Below are positions 11,275 to 57,570 of a stretch of 57,753 nucleotides of DNA, one piece after another. Under the pieces are notes generated by a model. It did no database searches and was not told where the DNA came from. It was given only the letters and a program-made list of their open reading frames with translations. A program made the position numbers and the translations under genes. How positions within the stretch are numbered: the stretch's first letter is position 1; the number at the start of each line of letters is the position of its first letter. This DNA comes from Tepidisphaeraceae bacterium (GTDB lineage Bacteria; Planctomycetota; Phycisphaerae; Tepidisphaerales; Tepidisphaeraceae). The stretch lies in contig DASYHQ010000035.1 in NCBI GenBank assembly GCA_035998445.1, forward strand, positions 1-57,753, given 5' to 3'.

Positions 11275-11408
11275 TGCTTTCCTTTCCCCGCCATCGAAGC
11301 GGGCGTGTTCGCCGTGTCGATCACCTTCAGTAATCTGTCTATGCGTCTCGCCTCACACTTGCTCACTCGCTTGCGGCGCCTGAGCCTGTATGCCTGCTTT
11401 CTATTCAT
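11271..11408 (-). CDS. Tiny basic protein, 45 aa
   Basis: A 45-codon frame starts at ATG 11408 inside the last codons of the zinc-ribbon gene (8-bp overlap) and ends in an ATGA overlap with the next gene. It encodes a highly basic helix (RKQAYRLRRRKRVSKCEARR) followed by a second helix (IDRLLKVIDTA). The unbroken coupling on both sides argues that it is translated. It could bind nucleic acid or be an anti-host peptide; nothing in the sequence decides. Confidence 0.55.
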   Translation of the reverse strand: MNRKQAYRLRRRKRVSKCEARRIDRLLKVIDTANTPASMAGKGKQ

Positions 11409-11907
11409 CACCAGCCTTCCCCAGGTGTGATCGGGCGTTCAACATCTGCTGGGCGTAGAACCATCGCCACGCGAAGTAACGGTCGATCGCGGCTTGGCGA
11501 CGCGCTTCGTGTCGGCGCTCCTGCTCATCCCGCGATGGGGACGTTGGCACGTCAGGTGCCTCAAGACCTTGCACCTGCCCGTGCTGATCAAACCACTCAG
11601 GGATTTCTGCCGGCGCCCGGGCGGCCAGAAGAAGGAGTGCATCTGGCATCAGATGCATGCCTGGCTCTAGCAATTGAACGGTCCCCTCTGCAGGCGGAAA
11701 GGTAATCGTCGCATCTGCGGCCAAGCGGAGGCCGTATGCAGGCGAGTCAGCGATTGCACGGTCTGCCGATGCAAGACGTTCATAGGTGGTGAACGAATGG
11801 CCGCAGTTACAGCGGCGACGGCGACGGACGCCCTGACGTACCGGACGGCTATCGACCACACGGCCCGTCTGAGCGCTCAATAACGTGTCGCAACTGGGGC
11901 AGTTCAT
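11401..11907 (-). CDS. NrdR-like zinc-ribbon protein, 168 aa
   Basis: Residues 1-45 reproduce the N-terminal zinc ribbon of the ribonucleotide-reductase repressor NrdR: MNCPSC, then VVDSRPVRQGVRRRRRC, CGHSFTTYERL. The ATP-cone that normally follows in NrdR is absent; instead there is a helical region of 120 residues with a Trp-rich C-terminal helix (RYFAWRWFYAQQML). It may therefore bind NrdR-box-like DNA without nucleotide sensing, or act as an Ogr-like phage activator. The ATG has GGGAGG 5 nt upstream and overlaps the stop of the IS110-domain gene (ATGA). Confidence 0.7.
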   Translation of the reverse strand: MNCPSCDTLLSAQTGRVVDSRPVRQGVRRRRRCNCGHSFTTYERLASADRAIADSPAYGLRLAADATITFPPAEGTVQLLEPGMHLMPDALLLLAARAPAEIPEWFDQHGQVQGLEAPDVPTSPSRDEQERRHEARRQAAIDRYFAWRWFYAQQMLNARSHLGKAGDE

Positions 11908-13286
11908 GCTGCCCTCCCTTGTGCTGGCGCATCAACAGCCCTTGCGTGACGCAGTTTGGCCTCCAACTCCGAACCCGCGGGATGTTCGGCCTGTAGAGGG
12001 TTAGTCGGAAGGTCGCGCCACGCGCGCCACAGTTCCCGCAGCAGCCGCTTACGCATGAACCTGAGGGCTCGCATGTGCGCGCGGCACTTCGGGTCGCGTG
12101 CCTTCTCGTACGCCTTGCGGTCGTTGTAGACCTTCGCGTATTCGGGGTTCTTTGCTCGGATGAGGTTGCCCCCAATTGTGTACATCACGGAGTTGCGAGT
12201 GCCGACGTAGCCCAGTTGCAGAAACTCCTCCGCCGTGATGCCCCCGCACCGCTTCCACGTCGACGCTGCCTTCCCCTTGTAGACGTGGAGTCCGAACCGC
12301 TTCCAGAGTTTTGCCGGGTTGGCGTAGTTCGAGAGGTCGCCCGCCTCACCGACGATCAGGGCAAGGCTGGGCGGTCCGAATCCGCGGACCTTGAAGCGAG
12401 ACCAGACCGGCAACTGCACGACGAGCTTGAGGATTTTCCGATCTAGTTCGTTCTGCCACGCGCGAAAGATCTTCTCCGCTTCGATGAACCGGTCGGCCAC
12501 CGGTCGCATGACGATCGCGATCATCCGCTCGGACTCGTTCAGGCCGGTGAGCTTGTTCTTCGTAATCGCGGTAACGATGGCCTTACCGCGATCGCGGACC
12601 GCGTCCCCTTTGGCATCCGAGTCCGGTATCGTTTGCGCCACCAATTGCCGCGCCAGAGCCCCGAATGGGTGCATCAGACCGATGCGGGTCCGCATGGCGG
12701 CATTGCGCTGCTTGTGAAGCTCGACCAACTGTCGGCAGATGCGATCGACATCGAGTTCGGGCAAAGTATCGGGCGAGGGGGCAACGGCGGGTTGGGTGTC
12801 ACCGGGGCGATGGCCCCCTCGCTCTAATTCAATCGCGCCGACCGGCATCCGATCATCGGGTGTCACGACGACATTGGCCGATCGGCGCGTTGGTTTGGAC
12901 TCGCTCGGCAAGCCGTTAATGGATGTCACGGCGGGGATGGCCGAACGAGCCTGTTTCGAAGAAGCGGCCGACAGCCGGCCGGCGGGTGACACACTTTGGG
13001 TGGTCGACCGCTTCTTGGTTCGTGCGACGGCGGACACTGGCGGGATGGGTGTCTGCCTTAACGGGGTCCGCTGTCGCATTGATTGTGGCTCGCTCGACAC
13101 CGGCAGCGAGGGTGTCAAACACGTCGTGGCCGAGCGAGCCGTTTTCGGAGTAGCGACCGACGACGGGCCAGTGGATGACACGCGAGGGGTGGCCGGTCGC
13201 TTCTTAGTTCGTGCAGAGGACGGCAGGGCGTTTTTGGGTGACACACGGGTGGTGGTCGTCCTCTGCTTCGATTGTTTCGTCTTCAT
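11904..13286 (-). CDS. Protein with IS110/IS116-type transposase C-terminal domain and a repeat N-terminus, 460 aa
   Basis: Residues 12-158 are seven exact 21-residue units with the loose consensus T-x-x-V-S/T-P-x3-L-P-S-x6-K-x-R-S-A, probably disordered and basic. Residues 175-290 are helical. Residues about 291-425 match the Transposase_20 domain found at the C-terminus of IS110 recombinases: RGFGPPSLALIVGEAG, LWKRFGL, then GTRNSVMYTIGGNLIRA and the helical end RAHMRALRFMRKRLLRELW. The N-terminal DEDD (RuvC-like) nuclease domain of IS110 enzymes is absent, and I cannot place the catalytic serine with confidence. ATG 13286 has AAGGA 9 nt upstream. The repeat units are encoded by stem-loops U1-U8 of the array described separately. 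Function unknown; a domesticated IS110-type DNA or RNA-binding protein is the best guess. Confidence 0.75.
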   Translation of the reverse strand: MKTKQSKQRTTTTRVSPKNALPSSARTKKRPATPRVSSTGPSSVATPKTARSATTCLTPSLPVSSEPQSMRQRTPLRQTPIPPVSAVARTKKRSTTQSVSPAGRLSAASSKQARSAIPAVTSINGLPSESKPTRRSANVVVTPDDRMPVGAIELERGGHRPGDTQPAVAPSPDTLPELDVDRICRQLVELHKQRNAAMRTRIGLMHPFGALARQLVAQTIPDSDAKGDAVRDRGKAIVTAITKNKLTGLNESERMIAIVMRPVADRFIEAEKIFRAWQNELDRKILKLVVQLPVWSRFKVRGFGPPSLALIVGEAGDLSNYANPAKLWKRFGLHVYKGKAASTWKRCGGITAEEFLQLGYVGTRNSVMYTIGGNLIRAKNPEYAKVYNDRKAYEKARDPKCRAHMRALRFMRKRLLRELWRAWRDLPTNPLQAEHPAGSELEAKLRHARAVDAPAQGRAA

Positions 13287-13480
13287 GACATTCGTCCTTC
13301 GTTCAATGCCAGGCATGGGCAACGGGGTTATGGGTGTCACTGGCCAGATGGCCCACGCCTGGCGAATTTTGCGAGCCCCGGCATCACTACCTCGGGTGCC
13401 AACGTACTGAAGGCCGGGGCTCGTTATGTCGTGGCGGCGGGCGGTATCGTTATGGGTGGCACGTTTCCTAGCCCGCCGCC
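12773..13480 (-). repeat. Array of eleven 63-bp stem-loops with covarying arms and a constant loop core
   Basis: Each unit is an inverted repeat with 10-14 bp arms enclosing a 30-nt loop (28 nt in the last) with GGGTGNCAC or a close variant in the middle (plus-strand notation). The arms start or end at: U1 12773-12822, U2 12834-12889, U3 12900-12949, U4 12959-13016, U5 13024-13077, U6 13087-13140, U7 13152-13201, U8 13213-13266, U9 13308-13363, U10 13372-13423, U11 13433-13480. Spacing is 64, 63 (six times), 96, 62 and 60 bp. Arm sequences differ between units, yet each pair matches with at most one mismatch. Six of the eight mismatches are G-U pairs in minus-strand RNA. Linkers are T-rich on the plus strand. 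U1-U8 lie inside the IS110-domain gene; U9-U11 lie between it and the sigma gene. Confidence 0.9.
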
Positions 13481-13491
13481 GCTTTGGTTCG

Positions 13492-14742
13492 TTACAGTTT
13501 GTGCCGCCTGAGGATGGCCTTCAGTTCATCCCGCCGCAGGCGCGCGCCGACCTTCTCGTCGTCGTCAACGTTGTTGCGCACCTCGCGGTAGAACGTGATC
13601 GTCTTGCCGTGTTCGAACCGCCGCCGTTCGTGCTTGGCGATCTCACGATCCAGATCGGCCCCGGTCGCCTCCATCAGCTTCTTCCCGCCGACCAGCCACC
13701 GGTCGATCATGTCTTCCTTCTCATCGTGGTCGTAGATGCTCAGCAGCGTTTCCAGCGTGCGGGTGGGCTGCGCCAGTACGGGCTTCGGCGTTTCAACTGG
13801 GTTAGCGGGTCTTGCCCGCACCGCAGTGCTGCGGCGAACGGCGACGAGGTGGCGGATGCCCTGGTCGATGAGGTAGTCCACCAACTGCATCTCTTCGTTC
13901 GCGACGCGCGGCCTGATCAACATGGCTCGTTCTAGGTCCTCGCGCACCTTGGTGATCGCGTCGTCCAGTTCCGCCAAGTGGTCGACCGCGTCGCGGACGA
14001 TTGCCTCGAACCGGTCGACAGGGTTTAACGGCGGTCGCGCGGCCGACGGTTCTCCGTTGCCCGTGGTGGTCAGATCGGTGAGCGTTTCACCCGTAGGTTC
14101 GGCAAATGTGGTTTCCATTTTTGCTTCTTCCTGCACCGCGAAGGCCCGCAGTGTCTTCAGTGCCTTGTCGTGTTCGCGTAGGGCAGCGTTTCCGTCGATA
14201 CCCAAGGCGACCGCGATCTGGTCGAACGTCTGACCATCGCGGTAGTGGAGTCGCATGATCCGTCGCTGGTGTTCAGGTAACGACCGCAGCTGATCATCGA
14301 AGAGGTCGCGGCGATCGATCAGCTCGAAGCCCCTGCCGCCTCCTGCCGACGCCACGTCGTCGAGCAAGCTGCCGGCATCGTCATGGTGACCACGCGGCGC
14401 GTTCAGCGACGTCACCCGTACTCGACCGCGTCCTGTGCATCGCGCCTCGTACCTCAGCCAGTCGTAAATCGCGTTCTTGATGCACGTCGTGGCGTAGGCC
14501 GGGAAGCTGCCCTCCACGTGCTCTACCTTCTCAATCGCCTTAGCGAGCCCGAACGATCCGGCCTGCACCAAGTCCTCGACCTCGATCGAATCAGCCAGAC
14601 GTCGCTTCATCCGTCCTGCCACCTGTTCGAGCAGGTACAACAGGCTTGCCATCAGTTTTGCCTTGGCGTGCCCGGACCTCGTCCGCATGTACTCGGTCCA
14701 TGCGTCGGCTTCCGTCTCGATAGGTGTTGCGAGCATCAACAT
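13492..14742 (-). CDS. Sigma-70 family RNA polymerase sigma factor with C-terminal extension, 416 aa
   Basis: Residues about 30-102 are sigma region 2 (VEDLVQAGSFGLAKAIEKVE, then FPAYATTCIKNAIYDWLR) and residues about 146-200 are region 4 (LPEHQRRIMRLHYRDGQTFDQIAVALGI). The first 200 residues are thus a short FliA/WhiG- or SigF-like factor. The remaining 216 residues are an unrelated helical, charged extension. It would redirect host RNA polymerase to element promoters. AAAGGG overlapping the upstream stop acts as ribosome site. The stem-loop array begins 11 bp after its stop codon. Confidence 0.85.
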   Translation of the reverse strand: MLMLATPIETEADAWTEYMRTRSGHAKAKLMASLLYLLEQVAGRMKRRLADSIEVEDLVQAGSFGLAKAIEKVEHVEGSFPAYATTCIKNAIYDWLRYEARCTGRGRVRVTSLNAPRGHHDDAGSLLDDVASAGGGRGFELIDRRDLFDDQLRSLPEHQRRIMRLHYRDGQTFDQIAVALGIDGNAALREHDKALKTLRAFAVQEEAKMETTFAEPTGETLTDLTTTGNGEPSAARPPLNPVDRFEAIVRDAVDHLAELDDAITKVREDLERAMLIRPRVANEEMQLVDYLIDQGIRHLVAVRRSTAVRARPANPVETPKPVLAQPTRTLETLLSIYDHDEKEDMIDRWLVGGKKLMEATGADLDREIAKHERRRFEHGKTITFYREVRNNVDDDEKVGARLRRDELKAILRRHKL

Positions 14743-16051: not shown

Positions 16052-16058
16052 GTGCAAG

Positions 16059-16132
16059 CGAGGACGACGGGGCTCGAACCCGCAACATCCGGATCGACAG
16101 TCCGGTGCTCTAACCAATTGAGCTACGTCCCC
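16059..16132 (-). tRNA. tRNA-Asp (GTC)
   Basis: On the minus strand the sequence folds as a cloverleaf: acceptor GGGGACG with CGTCCTC, D-loop AGCTCAATTGGTTAGAGC, anticodon arm CCGGA-CTGTCGA-TCCGG with anticodon GTC, and T-arm GCGGGTTCGAGCCCCGT (T-loop TTCGAGC). Discriminator base G73 is typical of tRNA-Asp. CCA is not encoded. The phage-like element lies on its 3' side, the usual orientation for integration next to tRNA genes. Confidence 0.95.
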
Positions 16133-22470: not shown

Positions 22471-22592
22471 CCGGTCCCTCTCCCGGTACCCCGGGAGAGG
22501 CTAGGTGAGGGTGATTTCGAACTGCTGGCGACTCGGCAGATCAAAATCACCCTCATCGAACCTCTCCCATGCGTACATGGGAGAGGGACCGG
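22471..22592. repeat. Inverted repeat element, family D copy 1
   Basis: The ends read CCGGTCCCTCTCCCGGTACC and GGGAGAGGGACCGG; the inner arms are AGGTGAGGGTGATTT and AAATCACCCTCA. The outer arm tips are themselves small palindromes. Other copies: 26674-26793, 28531-28655, 40957-41184 (interrupted), 48412-48539, and a half at 42618-42655. It lies immediately before argS. Confidence 0.8.
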
Positions 22593-36308: not shown

Positions 36309-36470
36309 AGAGCGTGTTAGGCACTTTCGGGGTCAGTAACGCAGGCGTGACGACGCTGGGTGCCACGGTTTGGTACTCCAAGCCGTGTCTGCGTGTACCG
36401 GCACGGCTTGGAGTACCAAACCGTGGCACCCAAGCCAGTTTTGAGTTGGAAAGTGCATAACGCGCTCTAG
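36309..36470. repeat. Inverted repeat element, family F copy 1
   Basis: The 160-bp element has outer arms AGAGCGTGTTAGGCACTTTC / AAAGTGCATAACGCGCTCT and a long inner palindrome GGGTGCCACGGTTTGGTACTCC / GGAGTACCAAACCGTGGCACCC. A near-identical copy is at 57410-57570. Confidence 0.85.
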
Positions 36471-57073: not shown

Positions 57074-57310
57074 GTCTGCCAGTCGGGCCAACGCGTCGAC
57101 GTTCCGTCCCAAAACGTCGACGCGTCAGGGCAAACGGTCGACGGTTTGAGTCGAACGGTCGACCGTTCACCCCAAACGGTCGACGTTTTGGGTCAAACGG
57201 TCGACGTTTTGGGTCAAACGGTCGACGCTTTGGGCTAAACGGTCGACCATTTGGGGCAAACGGTCGACGGTCCGGGTCGAATGGTCGACCGTTCGCCGCG
57301 AATGATTGAC
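57074..57310. repeat. 21-bp tandem repeat, about twelve units
   Basis: GTCGAC-centred units recur at exactly 21-bp steps: 57095, 57116, 57137, 57158, 57179, 57200, 57221, 57242, 57263, 57284, with degenerate ends at 57074 and 57305. The unit is close to TTTGGGTCAAACGGTCGACG. Because 21 is divisible by 3, both strands carry open frames with heptad repeats, but I do not treat these as genes. Confidence 0.9.
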
Positions 57311-57409: not shown

Positions 57410-57570
57410 AGAGCGTGTTATGCACTTTGGGGACCAGTAACGCAGGCGTGACGACGCTGGGTGCCACGGTTTGGTACTCCAAGCCGTGTCTGCGTGTACC
57501 GGCACGGCTTGGAGTACCAAACCGTGGCACCCAAGCCAGTTTCTCAGCTGGAAAGTGCATAACACGCTCT
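57410..57570. repeat. Inverted repeat element, family F copy 2
   Basis: It is almost identical to 36309-36470: AGAGCGTGTTATGCACTTTG ... AAAGTGCATAACACGCTCT with the inner TGCCACGGTTTGGTACTCC / GGAGTACCAAACCGTGGCA palindrome. Confidence 0.9.

Follow-up and report, generated by a model that had tools for sequence, protein, structure and literature searches.

Among described RNA-guided systems, the closest to the locus analysed here are the TIGR arrays and their Tas effectors. In TIGR arrays, each edge or loop repeat opens with box D (UG) and closes with box C (CCA), spacers are 9 nucleotides (nt) long, and the marked bases of the two boxes pair in the TasR structural work (PMC12045711). Maturation of the guides depends on Tas. 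Spacer A pairs with one strand of the target and spacer B with the other, and the target becomes strongly bent. In a second class, the stem-loop arrays, palindromic variable stems replace the edge repeats and the effector, TasA, has no nuclease; for one such array, processing into single hairpins was demonstrated, the RNA being pulled down and Tas-bound. These properties are given in the main text of Faure et al. 2025 (PMC12045711), where the arrays are placed upstream and/or downstream of tas. The stretch of DNA considered here, contig DASYHQ010000035.1 of Tepidisphaeraceae bacterium (GenBank assembly GCA_035998445.1; 57,753 nt, hereafter the window, to which all positions refer), carries an array of eleven hairpins and a gene, tasA, both read on the minus strand.

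The array is almost certainly a TIGR-TasA stem-loop array. The locus as a whole is highly likely to be a prophage-borne array of this class with a nuclease-free TasA, its guides lying mostly within the tasA coding sequence. The element is not new in kind, because stem-loop TIGR arrays have already been published (PMC12045711). What is new is the position of most guides inside the coding sequence of their own effector, here and in dozens of related phages. This coding overlap is mentioned neither in the main text of that paper, its supplement aside, nor in the one review in which it was sought.

The hairpin array and its relatives

All eleven inverted repeats of a preliminary description of this DNA are present at 12773-13480, with arms of about 10-14 bp and the loop lengths it gave, 30 nt in ten units and 28 nt in the unit nearest 13480 (unit 1). 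From high to low coordinate the units follow in steps of 60, 62, 96, six times 63, and 64 nt. The reported covariation of the arms is equally well borne out. In ten aligned units read as minus-strand RNA, 87.9% of stem cells are paired, 12 of the 14 stem pairs are changed on both sides, and the number of doubly changed cells is 42, compared with 12.9 in shuffles; sliding the partner by one to three columns lowers the covariation score from 0.806 to 0.163 or less. The two invariant pairs (2/14) are the innermost C-G and the third G-C. Together with folding z scores of -4.2 to -6.5 for individual units as minus-strand RNA, this covariation upholds the proposal of a structured RNA array on that strand.

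Read on the minus strand, a regular unit consists of a 5' arm ending in c, CA, 9 nt, UG-NCAC-CCR, 9 nt, U, and a 3' arm starting with g, so that the loop adds up to 2+9+9+9+1 = 30 nt. Constancy of this loop, as first claimed, extends to only about 12 positions (CA, UG-NCAC-CCR and U); the other 18 vary and form two 9-nt stretches, spacer A and spacer B. The palindromic GTGNCAC core remarked on earlier is present and is identified as box D (UG), a tetraloop and, usually, one G just before them. Each edge box joins loop sequence to the innermost base of the stem (cCA, Ug), and the pattern CCA-9-UG....CCA-9-UG occurs in 10 of the 11 units, allowed variants included, unit 1 being degenerate. Position by position, the locus agrees with the published TIGR box and spacer rules. 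As in the stem-loop arrays described in the main text of PMC12045711, tandem hairpins have variable palindromic stems, with two short spacers each set between a box C and a box D; unlike those arrays, the loop here is exactly 30 nt, with a true loop repeat. The UG/CCA boxes, the 9-nt spacers A and B and the Nop fold are shared with the dual-repeat TIGR systems of TasR and TasH, but stems stand here in place of edge repeats and there is no nuclease domain. In a CRISPR array, constant repeats alternate with single spacers of similar length, a class ruled out here by the two 9-nt spacers per hairpin and the variable stems.

Two scans of IMG/VR gave 82 related loci (labelled L###), all on viral contigs, and one named genome, that of Phycocomes zhengii, a Paracoccaceae, also has a relative. 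The expectation of homologous arrays elsewhere was thus confirmed among viruses but not in 392 genomes of the host phylum, in which no relative was found apart from the window's own locus; a search of plasmids found none either. A detector of the unit anatomy, run over 662 kb, returned 512 units against none in shuffled and three in reversed sequence, so the hairpin anatomy is not due to chance; the loop is exactly 30 nt in 440 of these 512 units. In the non-redundant set of 76 loci, 446 units lie sense to tas and one antisense, which disfavours the DNA hairpin array raised as an option earlier.

Units 189 bp apart in the window have 52 of 72 stem positions in common but 15 of 54 spacer positions, which suggests a duplication of three units followed by replacement of their spacers. 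Between the sister phages L064 and L066, whose tails are of equal length, stems are identical at 73/75 positions (97%) and spacers at 33/90 (37%), with 62/70 in boxes and tetraloops, 666/729 in the Nop domain and the reading frame kept. Units with near-identical stems agree at 4.9-5.1 of 18 spacer positions, against 4.8 at random. The earlier suggestion of guide-like hairpins therefore stands as to the type of hairpin but not as to the guides, which were sought in the arms and lie in the loop.

The units could instead be palindromic inserts without guide function that have spread through coding sequence. They occur in tails, in domain loops and in neighbouring genes, and the palindromic elements of Rickettsia are a precedent for palindromes tolerated in frame within proteins (PMC10969869). 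Boxes and 9-nt spacing that are exact to the nucleotide in hundreds of units make this account very improbable, as do random spacers between kept stems, the sense orientation next to tas and the processing and binding of a homologous array in PMC12045711. The Rickettsia elements differ in that they have no guide function and belong to no single effector gene.

The effector and the reading frame across the array

The only solid sequence match of the tasA product in the PDB is 9mty, TIGR-TasR (phmmer, E 4e-7); Pfam gave no match for the protein, hence no nuclease family, and PHROG gave weak transposase matches. The Nop-like domain is conserved in 16 relatives and its predicted model has a predicted local distance difference test (pLDDT) score of 85, with fold Z scores (VIA-align) of 16.3 to TasR, 15.3 to TasH, 13.8 to the IS621 bridge-RNA recombinase and 8.2 to Nop5. 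No RuvC, HNH or DEDD part was found in the protein, residues 1-159 having pLDDT below 50 and no secondary structure. A TasR-like Nop fold in the model and the lack of such a part assign the protein as TasA, a nuclease-free Nop-domain effector. A solo Nop-domain TasA and phage origin are likewise features of the stem-loop systems in the main text of PMC12045711.

The kinship of this neighbour with the RNA-binding domain of IS110, proposed from the outset, holds, with TasR scoring higher than IS621. An IS110-family transposon with bridge-RNA-like hairpins would account for the similarity in sequence and fold to IS110/IS621. IS110 transposases have an N-terminal DEDD/RuvC-like catalytic domain, whereas the protein here is a disordered tail of 177 amino acids (aa) and a Nop-like part of about 283 aa with no such domain before it, which rules out an IS110 transposase. 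As there are also eleven units in place of one two-loop RNA, a single copy in the genome, and better fits to TasR and TasH, the transposon can be all but dismissed. A Nop-type RNA-binding fold and boxed dual guides are common to this locus, to IS110/IS621 recombinases and to box C/D small ribonucleoproteins (Nop5), the last of which have kink-turn RNA and the partners L7Ae and fibrillarin.

The tasA ATG lies at 13286, after unit 3. Across the array the tasA frame has no stop, against six and five in the other minus-strand frames, and the window has no start led by a Shine-Dalgarno (SD) sequence between the array and the Nop-like domain. Eight of the eleven units (4-11) fall inside the frame; their translation would give the protein a disordered N-terminal tail of 177 aa, a stretch that has no aromatic residue against 21 in the remaining 283 aa. 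On these sequence grounds the guides very probably lie in translated sequence. That codon constraint is not the source of the arm variation, as first argued, is correct for the stems, but the same eight units are also part of an open, SD-led frame.

The arrangement recurs among the relatives, in which starts were called by a simple SD rule. Within the tas coding sequence lie 161 of the 446 units, in 48 of the 76 loci, of which 98 are in SD-led N-terminal tails and 63 in frame within or after the domain. In L057, an SD and ATG precede eleven units and no start codon follows them, a layout seen also in L007, L014, L022, L062, L064, L066 and L073; many loci have no start codon whatsoever from the last unit to the domain. 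C-terminal tails hold nine units in L070 and four in L058. Other units lie inside the Nop-domain coding itself (L031, L048, L073 and L007), and for L031, L048 and L073 their coding is certain. Units are also found inside annotated GenBank genes, three in the tas coding sequence of Rhizobium phage RHph_X2_25 and two in gene 26 of the Mycobacterium prophage prophiFSAT01-1.

The spacers themselves bear marks of the frame. For the stop count, every locus with three or more units beside tas was taken, whether open or not (23 loci). Tas-frame spacer codons contain 8 stops, where shuffling of the spacer letters predicts 20.6; the other frames contain 21 against 25.4 and 25 against 24.0. Amino acids were counted in the spacers of 120 units (720 codons) from 26 loci whose frame is SD-led. 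Tas-frame spacer codons specify 18 aromatics where shuffled spacers give 42.7 (z -4.5, 2.4-fold fewer) and 67 acidic residues where 44.3 are expected; given no stops, the expectation for aromatics is 48.4, and all of 200 simulations gave more than 18. There is no aromatic depletion in the other two frames (38 against 37.8 and 51 against 45.7) or in the tas frame of units outside the tas open reading frame (ORF). Because the depletion of stops and aromatics is confined to the tas frame, the guides appear, from composition, to be selected as codons. The arrays in the main text of PMC12045711 differ from this one, in which most units are in the tasA coding sequence and the spacers are constrained at the amino-acid level.

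Some observations weigh against guides doubling as codons. In the window alone, the absence of stops from spacer codons has P ~0.3, so the case for coding is built on all frames taken together, on the SD-led start and on the relatives. The arrays of L005 and L065 are clearly untranslated, so the system does not depend on translation of the array. The amino-acid count drew on 26 loci selected for having an open frame led by an SD, but this selection does not account for the aromatic depletion. A shorter protein could start from a TTG that lies at about 12764 and has no SD, and no DNA target above control was found in phage loci, host genome or IMG/VR. The array could accordingly be an ordinary one lying upstream of a TasA that starts at this TTG, with the open frame a by-product of high G+C, which yields long frames such as the plus-strand ORF at 12739-13410; arrays that are not open (L005, L065) and the published placement of arrays beside tas (PMC12045711) fit such an arrangement. 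It is unlikely in view of the unequal distribution of stops among the frames, the SD and ATG upstream, the many relatives with no start after the array, the depletion of stops and aromatics in the tas frame only, and the units within Nop-domain coding.

In the target searches, composite sites (spacer A, 0-2 nt and the reverse complement of spacer B, in both orders) were sought in the window and in 720 kb of phage loci, where they were no more frequent than sites for swapped spacer pairs (87 against 108 at two mismatches). When five window units were compared with the host genome in full, every site had 2-3 mismatches, a result similar to that of the reversed-pattern control. The IMG/VR scan returned five exact sites, about the number estimated by chance, and no second unit matched the contigs that hold them. 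With no target found, guide function is assigned by analogy.

Other patterns were set apart from this argument. Steps inside the frame are divisible by three in the window (63 x 6) and in L007 (60/66/63), which is suggestive but was not used as proof; L014, L062 and L079 deviate. Box D is in phase 0 in 2 of 194 in-frame units, a result that is partly circular, since TGA is a stop codon and would end the frame. A single origin of the coding arrays was unsupported, the tree needing at least 12-14 changes.

Arrays also occur in neighbouring ORFs, in L016, L083, L037 and L068. The array at L016:1494-2957 has 23 units, in which two constant stems alternate, and it lies inside an open frame of its own, which has no stops where the other frames have 7 and 29, has an SD and ATG at 1632 and would encode a 37-aa repeat protein. 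At L083:3094-4014, eleven units lie in the ORF directly upstream of tas and the array runs on into the tas C-terminal tail. Boxed hairpins at L037:2896-3771 and L068:2788-3726 are in the middle of the coding sequence of another gene, between two apparent domains.

A guide RNA that overlaps the coding sequence of its own effector is also found in TnpB/Fanzor, whose omega RNA has one scaffold overlapping C-terminal codons, 17 aa in the GtFz1 case (PMC10432273). Here, by contrast, whole guides including spacers overlap, many per gene, in N-terminal tail, internal loops and C-terminal tail.

Prophage setting

Sigma-70-like gene, array and tasA follow one another in this order, all on the minus strand (Table 1). 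No sigma-70 promoter stands out before tasA, and an Rfam scan gave tRNA only. A second copy of the 53-bp tRNA-Asp repeat is present on another contig, C22, at the opposite prophage end, beside genes for terminase gpA, portal, S49 protease, neck and tail. With this copy next to phage structural genes, the locus lies in a tailed prophage of at least ~44 kb, inserted at tRNA-Asp and split over two contigs.

Table 1. Features of the array, tasA and the surrounding prophage in the window
Feature	Position	Strand	Spacers A / B	Basis
Prophage, left part; remainder on contig C22	1..16054	-
tasA, 460-aa open frame; residues 1-177 are the tail from units 4-11, followed by the Nop-like domain	11904..13286	-		ORF, start, models, folds
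Nop-like domain coding, coiled coil and C-terminal RNA-binding part	11991..12755	-		9mty match, TasR fold, 16 relatives
Unit 11, within tasA frame, adjoins Nop domain	12773..12822	-	TCGCCCCGG / ACCCGCCGT
Unit 10, within tasA frame	12834..12889	-	ATGTCGTCG / ATGATCGGA
Unit 9, within tasA frame	12898..12951	-	TCCCCGCCG / TTAACGGCT
Unit 8, within tasA frame	12959..13016	-	CCCAAAGTG / CCGGCCGGC
Unit 7, within tasA frame	13023..13078	-	CGTTAAGGC / TCCCGCCAG
Unit 6, within tasA frame	13087..13140	-	CGACGTGTT / CGCTGCCGG
Unit 5, within tasA frame	13152..13201	-	CCCCTCGCG / CTGGCCCGT
Unit 4, within tasA frame	13213..13266	-	CCACCCGTG / AAAACGCCC
SD sequence AAGGA, 8 nt before tasA start codon, in the array's only 96-nt step	13295..13299	-
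Unit 3, predicted untranslated	13308..13363	-	TCTGGCCAG / TAACCCCGT
Unit 2, predicted untranslated	13372..13423	-	TCAGTACGT / AGGTAGTGA
Unit 1, 5'-most in RNA, 28-nt loop, boxes partly degenerate, between sigma-factor gene and tasA	13433..13480	-
Sigma-70-like gene, directly upstream on the same strand; stop ~12 nt before unit 1	13492..14742	-
53-bp attachment repeat at tRNA-Asp 3' end (tRNA 16058-16132)	16054..16106	-

Directly downstream of tasA, a gene for an NrdR-type zinc-ribbon protein (11401-11907) overlaps the tasA stop by 4 nt. Elsewhere in the window, identical copies of a long perfect inverted repeat with 25-bp arms (TGGGTGCCACGGTTTGGTACTCCAA) lie at 36353-36430 and 57454-57531; the repeat is unrelated to the array and is possibly a mobile palindrome. 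Palindromes at 22516, 26717 and 28579 have a common arm, GGTGAGGGTGATT, and are likely a dispersed chromosomal palindromic repeat. A GTCGACC-type tandem repeat of 21/63 bp occupies 57112-57294.

Proposed working and meaning

By analogy with the published systems, the array would be transcribed together with tasA, and one hairpin would yield one dual-spacer guide RNA in which each 9-nt spacer is bracketed by box C (CCA) and box D (UG). A TasA dimer would then be directed to an 18-bp DNA site, one spacer per strand. Since a nuclease is absent, the likely effect is that the target is bound, unwound and bent, with transcription or replication blocked or regulated. About one third of the guides of related phages, and eight of eleven here, would lie in frame within the TasA coding sequence; the same RNA would thus be messenger and guide precursor, and its spacers would be under two codes. 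It is probable that DNA-targeting spacers double as codons of the effector tail, that the tas messenger is the guide precursor, that spacer turnover respects the frame and that TasA can regulate itself by consuming its messenger. To do so, TasA would bind hairpins in its own messenger; each transcript would then serve either for translation into TasA or, once TasA had bound it, as a substrate that TasA and a host RNase cut into guides. Such a choice between protein and guides might, more tentatively, set up a negative feedback that couples TasA production to guide supply.

The TIGR family is young, and its biology, its regulation and the source of its spacers are still open questions. An array within the effector coding sequence would tie the supply of guides to that of protein and limit the spacers that are possible. 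Arrays hidden in this way would explain how gene callers come to bury them in hypothetical proteins, and they provide a search rule, namely boxed hairpins in disordered tails. Where the spacers come from becomes a testable question with L064 and L066, between which spacers have turned over while the stems were retained.
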